33,689 bases of DNA from Dysgonamonadaceae bacterium (GTDB taxonomy: Bacteria > Bacteroidota > Bacteroidia > Bacteroidales > Azobacteroidaceae): contig JAIRNV010000135.1 of NCBI GenBank assembly GCA_031257875.1, positions 1 through 33,689 on the forward strand. The letters run 5' to 3'. Below the pieces are notes generated by a model. It worked only from the letters and a program-made list of their open reading frames with translations, made no database searches and was not told the origin of the DNA. Positions 22,718 to 33,689 of this stretch are shown piece after piece (position 1 is the first letter of the stretch; each line of letters begins with the position of its first letter). Made by a program: the position numbers and the translations under genes.

Positions 22718-24064
22718 ATGGAAGTAAAAAACATTAAAATACGGAAATTGTTTGGTTTATTTGATTATAACATAGAATTAAACCAAAGCGGGAGCCTGAC
22801 TGTTTTGACAGGTCCGAACGGTTATGGCAAAACAACCATTTTGAATATTATTTACAGTCTTTTCAATCAAAGGTTTTTCTATTTTCAGAAACTTAATTTT
22901 GAGTTGATTTCGTTTTACTTTATCAACGGACAGCAAATTGACATTACAAAAAAGAAAGGGAAAGACAAAGTTGAACAAAGTGTACGAATAGTTAATAATC
23001 AGCAAAGAATCGTATCCCAAAATATTGAAACAGTTGATGTTCACATCAGGCTACTACAGACCGGTACGCCAATAGAAGCATTTATCTATAATTCGGAGAG
23101 TGAAAATAAACTGGTATTGGAGTTGGGAAAATATATTCCTGTTCATAAAATTTCTCAAAATATTGTTTTAGACAGTAGAACGGGGAAACAATTTTCGCTA
23201 AGAGATTTTTTAATTGAAAATATAAATTTTCTTCCGTTAAGTGTTATTAATTTAATCAACAAACAGGGAAGCGTTAAAATTTCCGAACTGTTAAATGCTA
23301 CAAATGTTTATCTCATTAGAGAAGAGAGGTTGTTGACTCAGACTCGCAATCCCAATCAAAACGTGTCTTTTGACAGAACGATTGAGAAATATGCCGAAGA
23401 ATTAAAAGCGTTAATAGCACAAAAGCAATTAGACGCATATAAAATTGCACAACAATTGGACGGCTCTTTTCCTAAACGCTTAATCGAATGCAAAGAATTT
23501 TTGTCGGAAAGTGATTTTAAATCCCGTTTTGCTGACTTGACTAAAAAACAGGCATTGCTAAAAACTTTTGGAATAGCAACTACCATACAAGATATTACAG
23601 AATACAATAACGAAACAAAAAACGTATTAACTGTCTATTTAGAGGATTCTGAGGCAAAAGTAAGAGTATATGATGAATTATTAAATAAAATAGAGTTGTT
23701 TGTGAATATTCTGAATGAAAAGATGTTTGCTTTCAAATCCATTGTAATAAACGGTTCGCAGGGTTTTTACTTTCAATTAAGCAATGGACAAAAATTGAAG
23801 TTGACGGACTTGTCTTCCGGTGAACAGCAGGAAGTTGTACTTCAATATGAATTGCTGTTTAAGACAAATCCCGATACTCTAATTTTAATAGATGAACCGG
23901 AAATTTCATTGCATGTGATGTGGCAAAAGGCATTTATACAGGATTTACAAAGGATAGCCAAAATAAAACAAATATCATTTCTTGTCTCGACTCATGCACC
24001 ACAGATTATTAACGACAATTGGGATTTGACTCGTGATTTGTATGAACTTTCCAATGCCGAATAA
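22718..24064 (+). CDS. ariA: PARIS-like AriA ATPase
   Basis: The 448-residue ABC-type ATPase has Walker A GPNGYGKT (residues 32-39), signature LSSGEQQEVVLQ, Walker B TLILIDEPEISLH and the switch region STHAPQII. The middle (about residues 190-310) is a helical, probably coiled-coil insert. It is followed after 5 bp by a DUF4435/TOPRIM gene. That gene order and both protein sizes match AriA-AriB of the PARIS anti-phage system, in which the ATPase scaffold holds AriB until a phage anti-restriction protein triggers release. Assignment to PARIS rather than another ATPase-TOPRIM pair is likely but not certain. Confidence 0.72.
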   Translation: MEVKNIKIRKLFGLFDYNIELNQSGSLTVLTGPNGYGKTTILNIIYSLFNQRFFYFQKLNFELISFYFINGQQIDITKKKGKDKVEQSVRIVNNQQRIVSQNIETVDVHIRLLQTGTPIEAFIYNSESENKLVLELGKYIPVHKISQNIVLDSRTGKQFSLRDFLIENINFLPLSVINLINKQGSVKISELLNATNVYLIREERLLTQTRNPNQNVSFDRTIEKYAEELKALIAQKQLDAYKIAQQLDGSFPKRLIECKEFLSESDFKSRFADLTKKQALLKTFGIATTIQDITEYNNETKNVLTVYLEDSEAKVRVYDELLNKIELFVNILNEKMFAFKSIVINGSQGFYFQLSNGQKLKLTDLSSGEQQEVVLQYELLFKTNPDTLILIDEPEISLHVMWQKAFIQDLQRIAKIKQISFLVSTHAPQIINDNWDLTRDLYELSNAE

Positions 24065-24069
24065 ATACG

Positions 24070-24924
24070 ATGGAAGAAAATCGAACTTTGAAAGGAAGCC
24101 TTGACGCCACTAACAAAATCAATGATATCAGATTATCTTTGCGTAACAATACGGGAAGTAAGATTATTTGGATTTTAGTAGAAGGGACCAATGATTGCAA
24201 AATTTATCCGAAGTTTTTTGAAAAAGACAAAGCAAAAGTAGAATTTGTATACGGGGGAAAGGGGCAATTAAACATTGCTTTAACCACACTTGCCAACGAA
24301 ACGGAACAGGTAGCCGGTATTCGCGATGCTGATTTTTTACATTTGGAAAAAACTTATCCCAATACTAAAAACCTGTTCTTTACGGATTATCACGACATTG
24401 AAATGACGATGCTCGGATTTGAGGAGGTTCGTAATAATTTGGCTTCCGAATACAGACTGTCGGACAATTTGCAAAAAATATGGGACAATGTTCTAAATGA
24501 ATCGGCATTCATTGCTTACATTCGTTGGTATAACGAACAGAAACGTTGTAAAATACGTTTTGACGGGATAAAATTTGGTGGAAATTTATCAGAAATAACC
24601 GAAGGAAAAATAAGTATTAAAAAACAGGAATTGCTGATTGAATTAAACAATCGTTCTGCAAACAAAGCAGAAAAATTGACTTTTGAAAATATTGATCATT
24701 TTATAAACCAATATAAAACTTCCGATTTCCTTAATCTTTGTAACGGACACGATACAACTGCATTGTTTTCTTTACTTGTTGAAAAACAGGTCTCTCATAC
24801 CGAATTTTGTCGCCATTTAAGATTATCCTTTACTGGCCGGGAATTTTCCACTACAAAATTGTACTCTGCAATATATGATTGGCAGCAGAAAAATGGATTT
24901 GATATTTTGAAACAGCTTACCTGA
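24070..24924 (+). CDS. ariB: PARIS-like AriB, DUF4435/TOPRIM effector
   Basis: The 284-residue protein carries the DUF4435 pattern with TOPRIM-type acidic residues: the Glu in IIWILVEGTNDCKIY (about residue 38), the DxD in VAGIRDADF (about 81-83) and DYHDIEMTML (about 99-106). In PARIS, AriB is the toxic nuclease that cleaves host tRNA once freed from AriA. All three acidic positions are present, so it looks active. It starts 5 bp after the ATPase stop. Confidence 0.75.
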   Translation: MEENRTLKGSLDATNKINDIRLSLRNNTGSKIIWILVEGTNDCKIYPKFFEKDKAKVEFVYGGKGQLNIALTTLANETEQVAGIRDADFLHLEKTYPNTKNLFFTDYHDIEMTMLGFEEVRNNLASEYRLSDNLQKIWDNVLNESAFIAYIRWYNEQKRCKIRFDGIKFGGNLSEITEGKISIKKQELLIELNNRSANKAEKLTFENIDHFINQYKTSDFLNLCNGHDTTALFSLLVEKQVSHTEFCRHLRLSFTGREFSTTKLYSAIYDWQQKNGFDILKQLT

Positions 24925-28646: not shown

Positions 28647-29420
28647 CTATTTTATCTTATCCCTCACCCCCTGCAAAAATATCTTCATACCCTCCACATC
28701 CCGCGCTTCTATAATTTTCAGAAGATTGGCCAGTTCTTTTCGGATTTGTTCCAACTGTCCGGGAGTTTTCGGATTAAAAAGAATTTCCGTCAACAAATAA
28801 TCGTCTTCCGAAAGCAGGCCGCGGGCAATATCCATGTGCTTTTTAAACGTAGTTCCAGGCGCCTCCTGATGTTTCATCACAGATGCAAAAACCAGTGTCG
28901 ACGAAAACGGAATGGACAGCGAATAGGCAACCGTTTCGTCATGCTCATCGAAAGTATATTCAAAAATATTCAGTTTCAATGTATTGTACAAATCCCTGAA
29001 AAAGACTTTTCCCAAATGGGAAGATTCGGAAATAATAATGGCATTCTCGGATGAAAGATTGCCTAAAGAGGCAAAAGTCGGCCCGAACATCGGATGCGTG
29101 GAAACATAAGGCCTTCCCGTTTTTTTGTAAAACGCTTTCAGTCCCGTCTTTACGGATGCGATGTCCGAAATAATACAGGACGCCGGAACAAAAGGCAACG
29201 CTTGATGAAACGCCTCAACCGTATACCGGACGGTAGCGGCATTAATCAATATTTCCGGTTGGAAATCCCTGATTTCTTCCGGTTGACTCATCCGGATGCA
29301 ATTGTAGGTAAAGCGCAATTTTTCGGGATTCGGGTCGAAAATGGCAACTTCATGCGTAAAACTTAGTACGTCGGCGAAGAAAGAACCCATTTTTCCTGCG
29401 CCTAAAATTTGGATTTTCAT
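28647..29420 (-). CDS. tyrA: Prephenate dehydrogenase
   Basis: This NAD(P)-dependent enzyme converts prephenate to 4-hydroxyphenylpyruvate, the tyrosine precursor. I start it at the ATG at 29420 (MKIQILGAGKMGSFFADVL), giving 257 residues with the GxGxMG dinucleotide motif at the very start. Further landmarks are SDIASVKTGL, the catalytic-site STHPMFGPT and the helical C-terminal dimerisation domain (YSLSIPFSSTLVFASV). It is the last gene of the aromatic operon, 13 bp after the DAHP synthase gene. No ACT domain is present, so feedback control probably lies elsewhere in the pathway. Confidence 0.9.
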   Translation of the reverse strand: MKIQILGAGKMGSFFADVLSFTHEVAIFDPNPEKLRFTYNCIRMSQPEEIRDFQPEILINAATVRYTVEAFHQALPFVPASCIISDIASVKTGLKAFYKKTGRPYVSTHPMFGPTFASLGNLSSENAIIISESSHLGKVFFRDLYNTLKLNIFEYTFDEHDETVAYSLSIPFSSTLVFASVMKHQEAPGTTFKKHMDIARGLLSEDDYLLTEILFNPKTPGQLEQIRKELANLLKIIEARDVEGMKIFLQGVRDKIK

Positions 29421-29433
29421 AATCAATTACGAA

Positions 29434-30501
29434 TTACTTATTCAACACTTCTATCTGCTGTCGAATAGATTCTTCATGAATAGCTTCCAGAACCGTTTTC
29501 ATAAACCCGGCGCCGATTCCCATTTTTTCAGCCTGCGAAACCCTGTTTTCCAGAATTTCATCATAGCGAACGGTTTGCAGTACAGGCATATTATGCTCCT
29601 TTTTGTATTGTCCGATTTCTTTGGAAATGCGCATCCGTTTGGCTAAAATACCGAGCAGTTCATTGTCGATTTCGTCAATTTCCTGCCGGAGTTGCACCAG
29701 ATTTTCCGTCGTCTGTTTCGTTTCCCGGACAACAAGCATACTCAAAATGTAAGAAAGAACATCCGGCGTAATTTGCTGATCCTTGTCGCTCCAGGCGCAG
29801 TCCGGATCGCAGTGCGATTCGATAATCAGGCCGTCGTAGTTCAGGTCCATGGCTTGCTGGCTGATAGGAGCGATTAATTCGCGCTTCCCTCCGATATGAC
29901 TTGGGTCGGAAAAGATCGGCAGGCTCGGAATCCGTCGTTTCAATTCAATCGGAACGTGCCACTGAGGATGGTTGCGGTACAGTTTTTTATCATACGTACT
30001 GAATCCCCTGTGAATTACGCCGATTTTCCGAATCCCTGCGTTGTACATTCTTTCGATAGCGCCAATCCACAGTTCCAAATCGGGATTCACCGGATTTTTA
30101 ATCAGCACAACTCCCGTAAAGCCGGAAACCTGCAAGGCTTCGGCAATTTCCTGAACCGCAAAAGGATTGACGGAAGTCCGGGCGCCCACCCAAATAATGT
30201 CAATGCCATGCTTAACGGCTTCAAATACATGGCTTTTATTGGCGACTTCCGTAGCCGTATACATGCCGGTTTCCCGTTTCACTCGCTGTAACCAGGAAAG
30301 GCCTTCCGAACCGACGCCTTCAAATCCACCCGGTTTTGTACGCGGTTTCCATATTCCGGCACGGAATATTTTGATTTCCCTCTTTGCCAATTCTTTGGCG
30401 GTTGTCATCACCTGTTCTTCTGTTTCAGCGCTGCACGGGCCTGCGATAATTAGCGGGCGCCGTTCATTGAGGCCAGGTAGTAAGATTGATTCTAATTCCA
30501 T
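29434..30501 (-). CDS. Bifunctional DAHP synthase / chorismate mutase (type II, AroQ)
   Basis: The 355-residue fusion catalyses the first step of the shikimate route and the branch step to prephenate. Residues of about 1-250 are a type I-beta DAHP synthase (IIAGPCSAETEEQV, AGIWKPRTKPGGFEG, VGARTSVNPFAVQEI, PIFSDPSHIGGKRELI, ESHCDPDCAWSD). About residues 262-355 are an AroQ-type chorismate mutase (LRQEIDEIDNELLGILAKRM, ISKEIGQYKKEHNMPVLQ). The order synthase then mutase is the one typical of Bacteroidota. The mutase part can serve as the allosteric domain in such fusions. Prephenate made here feeds the tyrA and pheA products of the same operon. Confidence 0.94.
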   Translation of the reverse strand: MELESILLPGLNERRPLIIAGPCSAETEEQVMTTAKELAKREIKIFRAGIWKPRTKPGGFEGVGSEGLSWLQRVKRETGMYTATEVANKSHVFEAVKHGIDIIWVGARTSVNPFAVQEIAEALQVSGFTGVVLIKNPVNPDLELWIGAIERMYNAGIRKIGVIHRGFSTYDKKLYRNHPQWHVPIELKRRIPSLPIFSDPSHIGGKRELIAPISQQAMDLNYDGLIIESHCDPDCAWSDKDQQITPDVLSYILSMLVVRETKQTTENLVQLRQEIDEIDNELLGILAKRMRISKEIGQYKKEHNMPVLQTVRYDEILENRVSQAEKMGIGAGFMKTVLEAIHEESIRQQIEVLNK

Positions 30502-30548: not shown

Positions 30549-30908
30549 TTATCCGTTTTTCCTGTACATAATCAATTTATGTAACATTTTTGATATGCAT
30601 TCGGTCTTTTCCACTAATACCATTCCATCTTCTTTTAATAAATAATTTAATTTTATTGATAAATATAATTGCGTTCTTAACTCTGCACATGAGCCTTTGG
30701 CAATGTACATGAATTGAACAAATTCTCTATTTGTCTGTCTTTCATATCCTTCAGCAATATTTGAAGGAACTGAAACAGCAGCTCTCTGCATTTGATCTTT
30801 AAATCCATAATCCTTACATAATTTTAATTTTTCATATACGGAAACAGTCATATTCATAGCATCTTTCCACACTTGTAAATCTTCAAATCTTTTTACTTCC
30901 CTGTTCAT
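30549..30908 (-). CDS. Four-helix-bundle protein (S23/23S-rRNA intervening-sequence type)
   Basis: This is a 119-residue protein from the ATG at 30908 (MNREVKRFEDLQVWKDAMNM). The pattern F-x-D-L-x-V-W-K-x-A, then QMQRAAVSVPSNIAEGYER and FVQFMYIAKGSCAELRTQL, is diagnostic of the S23-like four-helix bundle. The family was first seen in 23S rRNA intervening sequences; its role is unknown. Here it sits inside an aromatic amino acid operon to which it has no obvious relation, flanked on both sides by inverted GGTGAAGGG repeats. I infer an inserted passenger. Confidence 0.92.
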   Translation of the reverse strand: MNREVKRFEDLQVWKDAMNMTVSVYEKLKLCKDYGFKDQMQRAAVSVPSNIAEGYERQTNREFVQFMYIAKGSCAELRTQLYLSIKLNYLLKEDGMVLVEKTECISKMLHKLIMYRKNG

Positions 30909-30942
30909 AATCACACTTCCAATTAAATACGTACCCTCCCCG

Positions 30943-30966
30943 CCTTTTACCCTTCACCCTTCACCC
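30943..30966. repeat. Complementary CCTTCACCC flank of the four-helix-bundle gene
   Basis: The sequence CCTTTTACCCTTCACCC is the inverse of the repeat units on the other side of the gene. The aminotransferase gene takes its last codons (RGEG) and its TGA stop from this repeat. Confidence 0.7.
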
Positions 30967-32126
30967 CTGATCCGTTCCAAAGCCTCCTGCAATTTCTCAT
31001 CTTTGCAACAAAGCGAAATCCGGATGTAACGGTTACCGTTACTGCCGAAAATGAATCCGGGGGCGATAAAAACACGGGCGCCGTACAGAATCCGGTCTGC
31101 CAATTCTCCGCTATCCGCGTATTTATCGGGGATTTTTCCCCAAAGAAACATACCGGACTGTTTCGGGTCGAACCGGCAACCGAGCGTGTTCATAATCTCT
31201 TCGGCAATCTTTCGCCTTCTCCGGTATACTTCATTCATGGACGAATACCATTCTTTGGGAGCTTGCAGGGCTTGCGCCGCCGCCAGCATCATCGGTTTGA
31301 ACTGTCCGCTGTCGATATTGCTTTTCACTTTCAAAACCCACCGGACAAACTGCGCATTGGAGGCAAGCATGGCGATACGCCAGCCCGGCATATTTTGCGA
31401 TTTGCTCAAAGAGTTCATTTCGATACAGACCTCTTTGGCTCCTTCGATTGACAGTATACTCTCCGGACGGTCATTCAAAATAAAACTGTAAGGATTGTCA
31501 TTACAGATAATTATCTTGTGTTTATGCCCGAAATCAACTAATTTTCGATAAAGTTCAAGCGTAGCCGGAGCGCCGGTCGGCATGTGGGGATAATTGACCC
31601 ACATGAGTTTAACATTTGATAAATCAAGTTGCTCCAAAGCATTGAAATCCGGTTGCCAGTCATTTTCTTCTTTCAAATCGTAAGGAATGATTCGAGCTTC
31701 GACCAGATTACCGACCGAAGTGTAAGTCGGATACCCCGGATTGGGCGTCAAAACGCCGTCGCCGGGATTGAGGAAAGCCATGGAAATATGCAAAATCCCT
31801 TCCTTGGAGCCGATTAACGGTTGAATTTCCGTGTCGGGATTCAAATCCACATCATACCACTGTTTGTACCAGCCGGCAAACGCCTTGCGCAATTCGGGAA
31901 TGCCCGCATAAGGCTGATAACCGTGTGAATCGGCTTTTCGCGCCGATTTGCACAAAGTCTCAATGGCTTCTTCCGAAGGCGGCAAGTCAGGGCTGCCTAC
32001 GCCCAAACTGATTACATCCAGTCCTTTCGCGTTCATCTCTGCAATTTCCTTCAGTTTTTTGGAAAAATAATATTCACTGACCGAATGTAACCGCCGGGAC
32101 GGCTCTATTTTTTTTGTCATATCCAT
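30954..32126 (-). CDS. Class I/II PLP-dependent aminotransferase (probable aromatic)
   Basis: The 390-residue fold-type I aminotransferase has LGVGSPDLPPSEEAIE near the N-terminus, SHGYQPYAGIPELRKAF, the PLP-stacking YPTYTSVGNL, WVNYPHMPTGAPA, CNDNPYSFI, the Schiff-base Lys in EMNSLSKSQNMPGWRIA (near residue 242) and the terminal Arg in RYIRISLCC. It resembles LL-diaminopimelate/alanine-type enzymes. Its place between pheA and DAHP synthase-chorismate mutase argues for transamination of phenylpyruvate and 4-hydroxyphenylpyruvate. Two ATGs (32126, 32120) are possible. The end of the gene runs into the repeat at 30943-30966. Confidence 0.88.
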   Translation of the reverse strand: MDMTKKIEPSRRLHSVSEYYFSKKLKEIAEMNAKGLDVISLGVGSPDLPPSEEAIETLCKSARKADSHGYQPYAGIPELRKAFAGWYKQWYDVDLNPDTEIQPLIGSKEGILHISMAFLNPGDGVLTPNPGYPTYTSVGNLVEARIIPYDLKEENDWQPDFNALEQLDLSNVKLMWVNYPHMPTGAPATLELYRKLVDFGHKHKIIICNDNPYSFILNDRPESILSIEGAKEVCIEMNSLSKSQNMPGWRIAMLASNAQFVRWVLKVKSNIDSGQFKPMMLAAAQALQAPKEWYSSMNEVYRRRRKIAEEIMNTLGCRFDPKQSGMFLWGKIPDKYADSGELADRILYGARVFIAPGFIFGSNGNRYIRISLCCKDEKLQEALERIRGEG

Positions 32127-32155: not shown

Positions 32156-33016
32156 TTAACTCGTTAACTCATTTATATTGTTTTCTTTATATTCGCCTAA
32201 AATCTTAAAATCTCTCATCAAAGGGCGGGCAGCATCCAGTCCCTGCTTGTAATTCAAGATATCCGGGAAAGTCAGATCAATGTAAAACAAATACTCCCAT
32301 TCGCAGCCTAAAATCGGTAAAGACTGTATTTTAGTCAGATTTAAGTTGTAGAAATAGAAAATAGTCAATATTTTAGACAAACTTCCTTCCGTGTGCGGAA
32401 GGGTGAAAACAAGCGATGATTTGTTGATTTCGCCGCTTTTGACCAAATCGTCGGCTATCCAACGGTTTGAAATCAACAGAAAACGGGTAAAATTCCGTTT
32501 ATTCGTCTCTATGCCTTCTTCCAGGACCTGCAAACCGTAGCGTTCGGCAGCATACCGGCTGCATATTGCCGCATGTCCTTTCAGTTGATTTTCGGCAATG
32601 ATTTTCGCGCTTAACGCCGTATCTTCCTCTTCCACAATTTTTACCTTATGAAGCGTATTCAAATAATCGGCGCATTGCATCAAAGCAATCGGGTGGGAAT
32701 TTACTTCGCTGACCGTTTCTGCGGATTCGCCAGGCAGGACGGCAAAACTGTGGGTGATGCGGATTTTCTGTTCGCCGACAACCACTAAATCACTTTCCCT
32801 GATAAGTTCGTGATTTTGCAGCAAACTTCCCGCGATTGTATTCTCTATCGCCATGATACCGATAATATTCGGATCTTTTTTCACGGCGGCAATCACATCC
32901 TTGAACTGATTACAGGGAAGAATCCCAATATTTTCTTCCCCTTTTTCTTTGAAAAACCTGCGCGCGGCTATCTCATGCCAGGCGCCTTCGATTCCCTGAA
33001 TAGCAACTGTTTTCAT
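32156..33016 (-). CDS. pheA: Prephenate dehydratase with ACT domain
   Basis: This enzyme converts prephenate to phenylpyruvate. I start it at the ATG at 33016 (MKTVAIQGIEGAWHEIAARR), giving 286 residues. The in-frame ATG at 33076 lies upstream of the terminator stem, and its extra residues (DFFFEF) just translate the terminator T run. The PDT domain has GIMAIENTIAGSLLQN, SHPIALMQC, AAICSRYAAERYGL and the catalytic TRFLLIS. The C-terminal ACT domain (SSLVFTLPHTEGSLSKIL, LGCEWEYLFYIDLT) is the usual site of phenylalanine feedback. It is the first structural gene of the operon and sits directly behind an attenuator. Confidence 0.94.
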   Translation of the reverse strand: MKTVAIQGIEGAWHEIAARRFFKEKGEENIGILPCNQFKDVIAAVKKDPNIIGIMAIENTIAGSLLQNHELIRESDLVVVGEQKIRITHSFAVLPGESAETVSEVNSHPIALMQCADYLNTLHKVKIVEEEDTALSAKIIAENQLKGHAAICSRYAAERYGLQVLEEGIETNKRNFTRFLLISNRWIADDLVKSGEINKSSLVFTLPHTEGSLSKILTIFYFYNLNLTKIQSLPILGCEWEYLFYIDLTFPDILNYKQGLDAARPLMRDFKILGEYKENNINELTS

Positions 33017-33034
33017 CTTTACGCAATTAAATTC

Positions 33035-33066
33035 AAAAAAAAAATCCCGCCGTTCTCGACAGGATT
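33035..33066 (-). terminator. Attenuator terminator in the pheA leader
   Basis: On the minus strand AATCCTGTCG-agaa-CGGCGGGATT forms a 10-bp stem with two G-U pairs (33066-33057 with 33052-33043), followed by a T run down to 33035. It lies between the leader peptide and the pheA ATG, so it can stop transcription before the operon. Its 5' arm overlaps the antiterminator segment at 33059-33071. Confidence 0.85.
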
Positions 33067-33119
33067 TTATATTCATTTTATAACATATATTTTTTGTTTT
33101 TTATCATACAAAACCCTGT
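33059..33119 (-). promoter_or_regulatory. Antiterminator pairing of the pheA attenuator
   Basis: ACAGGGTTTTGTA (33119-33107, minus strand) starts one base after the leader-peptide stop codon. It pairs over 13 positions (11 Watson-Crick, 2 G-U) with TATAAAATCCTGT (33071-33059), which contains the 5' arm of the terminator. A ribosome that reaches the leader stop covers the first segment and lets the terminator form; one stalled earlier leaves it free to block the terminator. Confidence 0.8.
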
Positions 33120-33120
33120 T

Positions 33121-33177
33121 TTACTCTTTATTAAAGTAAAAGTAATAAAAGGAATATGTAAAATAAAAATGATTCAT
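33121..33177 (-). CDS. Phe/Tyr-rich leader peptide of the aromatic operon
   Basis: An 18-codon reading frame reads MNHFYFTYSFYYFYFNKE and ends TAA. It has five Phe and five Tyr, ten aromatic residues in eighteen, clustered at positions 4-15. It starts about 22 nt after the expected transcript start and ends just before the antiterminator. Function as a sensor of charged tRNA-Phe and tRNA-Tyr follows from the known mechanism of pheL-type attenuators. The mixed Phe and Tyr codons fit an operon that makes both amino acids. The codons are not a by-product of a simple T run. Confidence 0.85.
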   Translation of the reverse strand: MNHFYFTYSFYYFYFNKE

Positions 33178-33205
33178 CGCTTGTTTGTTGTTACAAATTC
33201 GGGTG

Positions 33206-33234
33206 CAAATGTAATCAATTTTTTTAACATACAA
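33206..33234 (-). promoter_or_regulatory. Promoter of the aromatic amino acid operon
   Basis: On the minus strand TTG (33234-33232), 18 bp and TACATTTG (33213-33206) match the Bacteroidota -33/-7 elements. The transcript would start near 33199, giving a leader of about 180 nt before pheA that holds the leader peptide and attenuator. Confidence 0.7.
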
Positions 33235-33689
33235 GTTATTGATGAATAAAAATTGCATTGCGCGACCTGTCATTCAAATGTGTGACATTTCTATTTAAAC
33301 CACAAAGGGGCAAAAGTCGCACAAAGGAGTTTCACAAAATCAACCTTTGTGCGACTTTATGCCTTTATAGAATTCACCCATACACATCTTTTTTATTCCG
33401 GAATTGATTGTTTTTTGGCAGTGATTTAAAAAGTATGCTATAATAATTAAATATGTGTGAAAAATATAACCTAAACTGTTTATAGCTGCATATTTTTTAC
33501 ATCACCACCCATTTTTTTATGTGAAATAATTTGGATGGGAACATGGAATTCACCCATCATTATTCTAAAAATTTTTTTTCAAAATATACTTTGTATTTTT
33601 ACATCGAAAATTTTTAGAACCGGGAGTATATTTCGATTTAAATCAATGATTTAAATAAGAATCAAGAGTTGATTCCGATTTAAATCATT
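33235..33689. repeat. Gene-free end of the window with two hairpin repeats
   Basis: AAAGTCGCACAAAGG (33313-33327) pairs perfectly with CCTTTGTGCGACTTT (33344-33358), and weaker pairing extends outward. At the very end, AATGATTTAAAT-aa-GAATCA folds on TTGATTC-cg-ATTTAAATCATT (33645-33689) and may continue past the window. The rest is AT-rich with no coding signal. Confidence 0.6.

Follow-up and report, generated by a model that had tools for sequence, protein, structure and literature searches.

A Candidate Phe/Tyr Leader-Peptide Attenuator Upstream of the pheA Operon in the Class Bacteroidia

Introduction

Leader-peptide attenuation is textbook knowledge, and attenuators of the trpL/pheL type work by ribosome stalling. 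In the pheL attenuator of enterobacteria, runs of Phe codons precede the prephenate dehydratase gene, and the antiterminator and terminator folds exclude each other. Other leaders carry codons for more than one amino acid, such as ilvL (Ile/Val/Leu) and thrL (Thr/Ile). Mutually exclusive folds in front of biosynthetic operons also belong to the anatomy of riboswitches and T-boxes. A comparative study of attenuators by Lopatovskaya et al. from 2010 (doi 10.1134/S0026893310010164, cited in PMC4833913) may include Bacteroidota.

In the phylum itself, clues to leader-peptide attenuation of amino acid operons are presented in a study on Flavobacterium psychrophilum (PMC9723704, 2021). It names pheA among the conserved structured 5′ elements of Flavobacteriaceae that lack Rfam matches, and its main text does not describe this pheA element as a Phe/Tyr leader. 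Leader-peptide-like small ORFs of Bacteroides thetaiotaomicron are mentioned in PMC7366714, the relevant passages of which do not name pheA.

Here, we follow up an original prediction, made from the letters of the DNA alone, of an attenuator in front of pheA in a Dysgonamonadaceae bacterium. The window, i.e., the whole stretch of DNA that was analyzed, comprises 33,689 nucleotides of contig JAIRNV010000135.1.

Results

A leader ORF and two exclusive folds precede pheA

The window belongs to a fragmentary metagenome-assembled-type Bacteroidales genome of 234 contigs that is 84.7% complete. Its PheA protein is up to 94% identical to those of the nearest named relatives, Candidatus Symbiothrix and Dysgonamonadaceae MAGs, which we take to be of termite gut origin. 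The features of the leader region and of the operon downstream of it are listed in Table 1.

Table 1. Positions of the attenuator parts and operon genes in the window
Feature	Positions	Strand	Details
Promoter, Bacteroidota –33/–7 type	33206..33234	-	TTG 33234-33232 and TACATTTG 33213-33206, read in the sequence
Leader ORF, 18 codons (5 Phe, 5 Tyr)	33121..33177	-	MNHFYFTYSFYYFYFNKE and stop; ATG 33177, TAA 33121
Region 2, antiterminator 5′ arm	33106..33119	-	ACAGGGTTTTGTAT; starts one base past the leader stop; 14 pairs with region 3
Region 3, antiterminator 3′ arm	33059..33072	-	ATATAAAATCCTGT; overlaps the terminator 5′ arm (33068-33057)
Intrinsic terminator	33035..33068	-	AAAATCCTGTCG-AGAA-CGGCGGGATTTT; stem 33068-33057 / 33052-33041, T's to 33035; terminator scan
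pheA, prephenate dehydratase	32156..33016	-	ATG 33016; Pfam PF00800, E 1.2e-50; NCBIfam matches
Class I/II aminotransferase	30954..32126	-	PF00155
DAHP synthase fused to chorismate mutase	29434..30501	-	PF00793 + PF01817
tyrA, prephenate dehydrogenase	28647..29426	-	PF02153

All parts of the original prediction were recovered, with small corrections. The –33/–7 promoter is present on the minus strand before the leader, and 10 of the 18 leader codons encode Phe or Tyr. The densest part of the leader, a core with 10 aromatics in 12 codons, was matched by none of 5000 dinucleotide shuffles of the sequence, and nowhere else in the window do 12 codons hold at least 8 aromatics; chance is excluded as an explanation for this density. 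The antiterminator lies where it had been placed, one base past the leader stop, and its length had to be corrected from 13 bp to 14 consecutive pairs including two G·U. The duplex of regions 2 and 3 has a predicted energy of –16.4 kcal/mol, compared with a shuffle mean of –4.9 (p 0.005). Likewise, the hairpin and its T's before pheA were confirmed by a terminator scan of the window (one found, 0.2 expected), with a stem of 12 pairs including G·U instead of the 10 bp claimed. Since the terminator draws its 5′ arm from region 3, the antiterminator and the terminator exclude each other, in agreement with the shared arm originally proposed. The distance between the last aromatic codon and the first paired base of region 2 is 13 nt. 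Upstream of the promoter, at 33313-33358, lies a perfect 15-bp inverted repeat (AAAGTCGCACAAAGG / CCTTTGTGCGACTTT).

The gene order pheA, aminotransferase, DAHP synthase/chorismate mutase, tyrA is kept in 62 relatives with enough flanking sequence. The DAHP synthase/chorismate mutase of this operon was the sole DAHP synthase found in a search of the 84.7%-complete genome, and the leader contains no Trp codon. Trp supply would have to be secured otherwise: Trp synthesis would hinge on an operon without a Trp codon in its leader. Elsewhere, 43 of 191 leaders carry one. Between the aminotransferase and DAHP synthase genes, a gene for a PF05635 23S rRNA-intervening-sequence (four-helix-bundle) protein is located at 30549-30914 on the minus strand; such a gene was found nearby in none of 80 related loci. 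At 22718-24924 (plus strand), the window also harbors an AAA ATPase gene (AAA_15/AAA_21) and, directly behind it, a gene with DUF4435; the combination calls defence systems to mind.

Aromatic leaders are conserved throughout the class

The pheA upstream regions used for comparison were drawn from 80 named genome contigs and from the family, order, and phylum of the window. An ORF with at least six Phe/Tyr in 12 codons was called a leader, and the expectation was derived from shuffling. Such a leader precedes pheA in 203 of the 234 loci with enough upstream sequence (11.6 expected), and a stricter one with at least eight Phe/Tyr in 12 codons in 177 (0.4 expected). Owing to the relatedness of the sampled genomes, these counts do not represent independent events. 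With duplicates taken out, leaders were present at 28/37 loci of the window's own family, 61/62 named loci, 57/60 loci of the order sample, and 41/44 of the class sample, compared with 3/14 in other classes of the phylum. The attenuator thus spans the class Bacteroidia, as judged from its leaders, and is rare in the other classes. Examples are MKALYNTYFFFFYYFYFSNKVKREFVCVR from Phocaeicola vulgatus as well as MSNNRFYFSNTFFFFYGK and MKRFNAYFWFYYYYFKALPGFERVAVCC from the class sample. In the order sample, 87 of 158 Bacteroidales genomes gave no PheA match, which suggests that Phe synthesis has often been lost or that the enzymes have diverged strongly.

The 12-codon cores contain 984 TTT/TTC, 752 TAT/TAC, and only 14 TTA/TTG codons, a tally that is partly biased by the selection of ORFs for their Phe/Tyr content. 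The large excess of TTT/TTC over TTA/TTG, together with the TAT/TAC codons, indicates that amino acids are conserved here and not merely a T-rich RNA. Both Phe and Tyr occur in 188 of 191 cores; three hold only Phe and none only Tyr. The last three codons of the core usually alternate (FYF in 88 cases, YFY in 37), and the last aromatic one encodes Phe in 138 of the 191. The length, the N-terminus, and the C-terminus of the leader vary freely among loci, and the aromatic density alone persists.

A TAnnTTTG element lies no more than 120 nt ahead of the leader's start codon at 153 of 188 loci (20.6 expected), with a median distance of 35 nt. On the other side of the leader, the last aromatic codon is separated from region 2 by a median of 11 nt (5–95% range 6–14 nt). 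Leaders of the window's clade often stop just ahead of region 2; in many relatives, among them Phocaeicola, the frame continues through this region.

Both folds are maintained by compensatory changes

The hairpin with its T-run is kept at the same place in the relatives. Of the 168 loci with both a leader and a hairpin, 161 possess an upstream arm whose complementarity to region 3 is significant by shuffling (p < 0.05), 138 of them at p < 0.01; terminator and antiterminator are both present in 160 loci. The arms themselves diverge widely, for example ACAGGAT/ATCCTGT, AAGCGGGA/TCCCGCTT, GCCGGGA/TCCCGGC, GAGGCTTTG/AAAGCCTC, and AGGATTGTG/TACAATCCT, and each region 2 still fits its own region 3. 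A table of pairs built from the predicted duplexes illustrates the variety of pairs and is not an independent test.

For a swap test, each distinct region 3 core was represented by one locus (n = 50), and region 2 was taken from a fixed window that was not picked by pairing. This test supersedes a version in which region 2 was picked by its best own pairing, a choice that favors the hypothesis. Own pairs averaged –15.6 kcal/mol compared with –9.5 (sd 0.4) for permuted ones (z = –15), and none of 20000 permutations fell below –11.3. With the 28 distant loci only, the values were –14.4 and –9.0 kcal/mol, respectively. This fit of region 2 to its own region 3 indicates that the two regions are under compensatory evolution and that both folds are maintained. 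The other arm of the terminator, region 4, also covaries.

A 1:2 hairpin, which would protect region 2 in the absence of translation, is typical of trpL/pheL attenuators but not universal. As a general feature, it was not found among the 160 loci: p ≤ 0.05 was obtained in 31 of them, the mean z was –0.74, and the window gave no significant result. The behavior of the element without translation and the synchronization of ribosome and polymerase are therefore less certain.

Among the outcomes that would count against it, the original prediction had listed an absence of aromatic leader peptides and of the paired stems upstream of pheA in related genomes. With leaders at 203 of 234 loci, the comparison went the other way. 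A comparison of related pheA leaders, such as it had suggested, revealed conserved aromatic codons, covarying antiterminators and terminators, and a promoter and spacing that are kept.

The attenuator is lost in some relatives

Nine of the 37 loci of the window's own family lack the leader. The losers include L111 (G002) and L118 (G003) as well as L097, L103, L109, L110, L112, and L117; both genomes of the genus with a size of ∼1.0–1.2 Mb (G002, G003) are thus among them. Several leaderless loci show a TAnnTTTG-like site only a short way before the pheA start, and here pheA seems to have a promoter of its own. These losses would fit relaxed control in obligate symbionts, in a sample of small numbers. 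At locus L099 (G019), the terminator hairpin is retained, and the leader ORF and the antiterminator arm are gone between the TAnnTTTG site and the terminator. This locus appears to represent a decayed attenuator that should always terminate, unless another promoter is used.

Proposed mechanism and alternative explanations

The comparison supports well that a ribosome-mediated transcription attenuator controls the pheA operon, and we regard this as very probable. The transcript would begin ∼7 nt past TACATTTG, with a ribosome translating the leader behind RNA polymerase. If Phe-tRNA and Tyr-tRNA are ample, this ribosome would reach the stop codon and cover region 2, so that regions 3 and 4 could form the terminator and transcription would stop before pheA. 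If charged tRNA-Phe or tRNA-Tyr is scarce, it would stall on the run of Phe/Tyr codons. Region 2 would then be available for pairing with region 3, no terminator would form, and the operon would be transcribed. The same outcome is expected for leaders reading through region 2. The spacing between the codon run and region 2, both in the window and at the median locus, agrees with the geometry of an attenuator, in which region 2 stays accessible when a ribosome is stalled on the run and is covered by a ribosome that has reached the stop codon. Several points weigh against the model: the window comes from a fragmentary assembly, the protector hairpin is not generally conserved, the leader has no Trp codon in an operon with the sole DAHP synthase found, and some relatives manage without the attenuator.

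Joint control of the operon by Phe and Tyr had been claimed for this locus and is supported by the codon content, with both residues in 188 of 191 cores. We expect both to be sensed because the cores hold both codons and the operon makes both amino acids. The same attenuator might nevertheless respond to Phe only (or to Tyr only), one tRNA being limiting and the other aromatic codons being tolerated replacements. The excess of Phe over Tyr in the cores (984 to 752), the three Phe-only cores, and the preference for Phe as the last aromatic codon are consistent with such single sensing. We nonetheless consider it unlikely, given an operon for the synthesis of both amino acids and cores in which the two residues usually alternate up to the last three codons.

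Two further explanations assign the leader ORF a different role. The folds could be sensed by a ligand or a protein, as in a riboswitch, a T-box, or an element bound by an RNA-binding protein, with the small ORF being secondary. A biosynthetic operon preceded by two exclusive folds is indeed what the window shows, but conservation is confined to the short pairing arms, no aptamer-like core was seen, and the aromatic codons are conserved as well. Moreover, no Rfam family matched the window or seven relatives at gathering score, and riboswitch or T-box identity was rejected for lack of a match to such families at this score. We therefore judge a ligand- or protein-sensing element to be very improbable. 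That the ORF encodes a functional small peptide, followed by a plain terminator hairpin, is hardly credible: a pattern recognizable across a class could be read this way, yet length and both termini of the peptide vary freely, and the hairpin and antiterminator covary with each other while keeping a constant distance to the aromatic run. Stalling at Phe and Tyr codons thus remains our preferred explanation of the leader.

Discussion

The functional class of the element is established; its Phe/Tyr form, which extends across the class Bacteroidia, does not seem to have been worked out before. On balance, we lean towards a broader view, in which a dual Phe/Tyr attenuator is class-wide and probably ancestral in Bacteroidia and does without a conserved protector hairpin. 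This would imply that Bacteroidia as a class have retained close coupling of translation to transcription, and the attenuator would have disappeared repeatedly from intracellular or gut symbionts that have stopped adjusting their supply of aromatic amino acids. Ribosome-stalling attenuation would then be a long-standing and widespread mode of regulation in the class, implying transcription-translation coupling there. The model offers a testable mechanism by which Bacteroidia, Phocaeicola vulgatus and other major gut commensals among them, could control Phe and Tyr synthesis, and the attenuator could be used as it stands to sense the supply of both amino acids. At present, no Rfam family annotates it.

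According to the original prediction, this attenuator is not known to have been described from Bacteroidota. Our literature search for a Phe or Tyr attenuator of the phylum found no paper describing one beyond PMC9723704. The statement has to be qualified insofar as Trp attenuation is known in the phylum (RF01692) and PMC9723704 presents clues to attenuation and a structured pheA 5′ element. The Flavobacteriaceae pheA element of that study and the element of the window are probably the same device, since leaders such as MSNNRFYFSNTFFFFYGK precede pheA in the class sample.

A permissive Rfam scan returned only sub-threshold matches resting on the terminator hairpin. Assignment to Phe_leader (RF01859) was rejected, with a score of 24 bits compared with a gathering score of 55 and essentially the terminator part aligned. 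The element was not assigned to Bacteroid-trp (RF01692) either: this model has no match in the window, the leader lacks Trp codons, and the downstream gene is pheA.

Among the described systems, Bacteroid-trp ("Bacteroidete tryptophan peptide leader RNA") stems from the same phylum and shares with our element a short ORF rich in the end product (e.g., MNHLINTYWWWRLQTVRS) before a biosynthetic gene; it differs in its Trp codons and trp genes. Bacteroid-trp elements with WWW leaders also occur in the family of the window, at L240 in front of a trpB-like gene (named by reading the protein). The pheL attenuator (RF01859), the best sub-threshold Rfam match, resembles the element of the window in its leader with runs of Phe before a prephenate dehydratase gene and in its exclusive folds. 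In contrast to the Phe and Tyr codons of this element, it uses Phe only; its target is a fused chorismate mutase/dehydratase, and it possesses the 1:2 protector hairpin that is not generally conserved in the Bacteroidia element. Finally, ilvL and thrL provide the parallel of a single leader that responds to two or more products of its operon, as proposed here for Phe and Tyr, for other amino acids and in another phylum.
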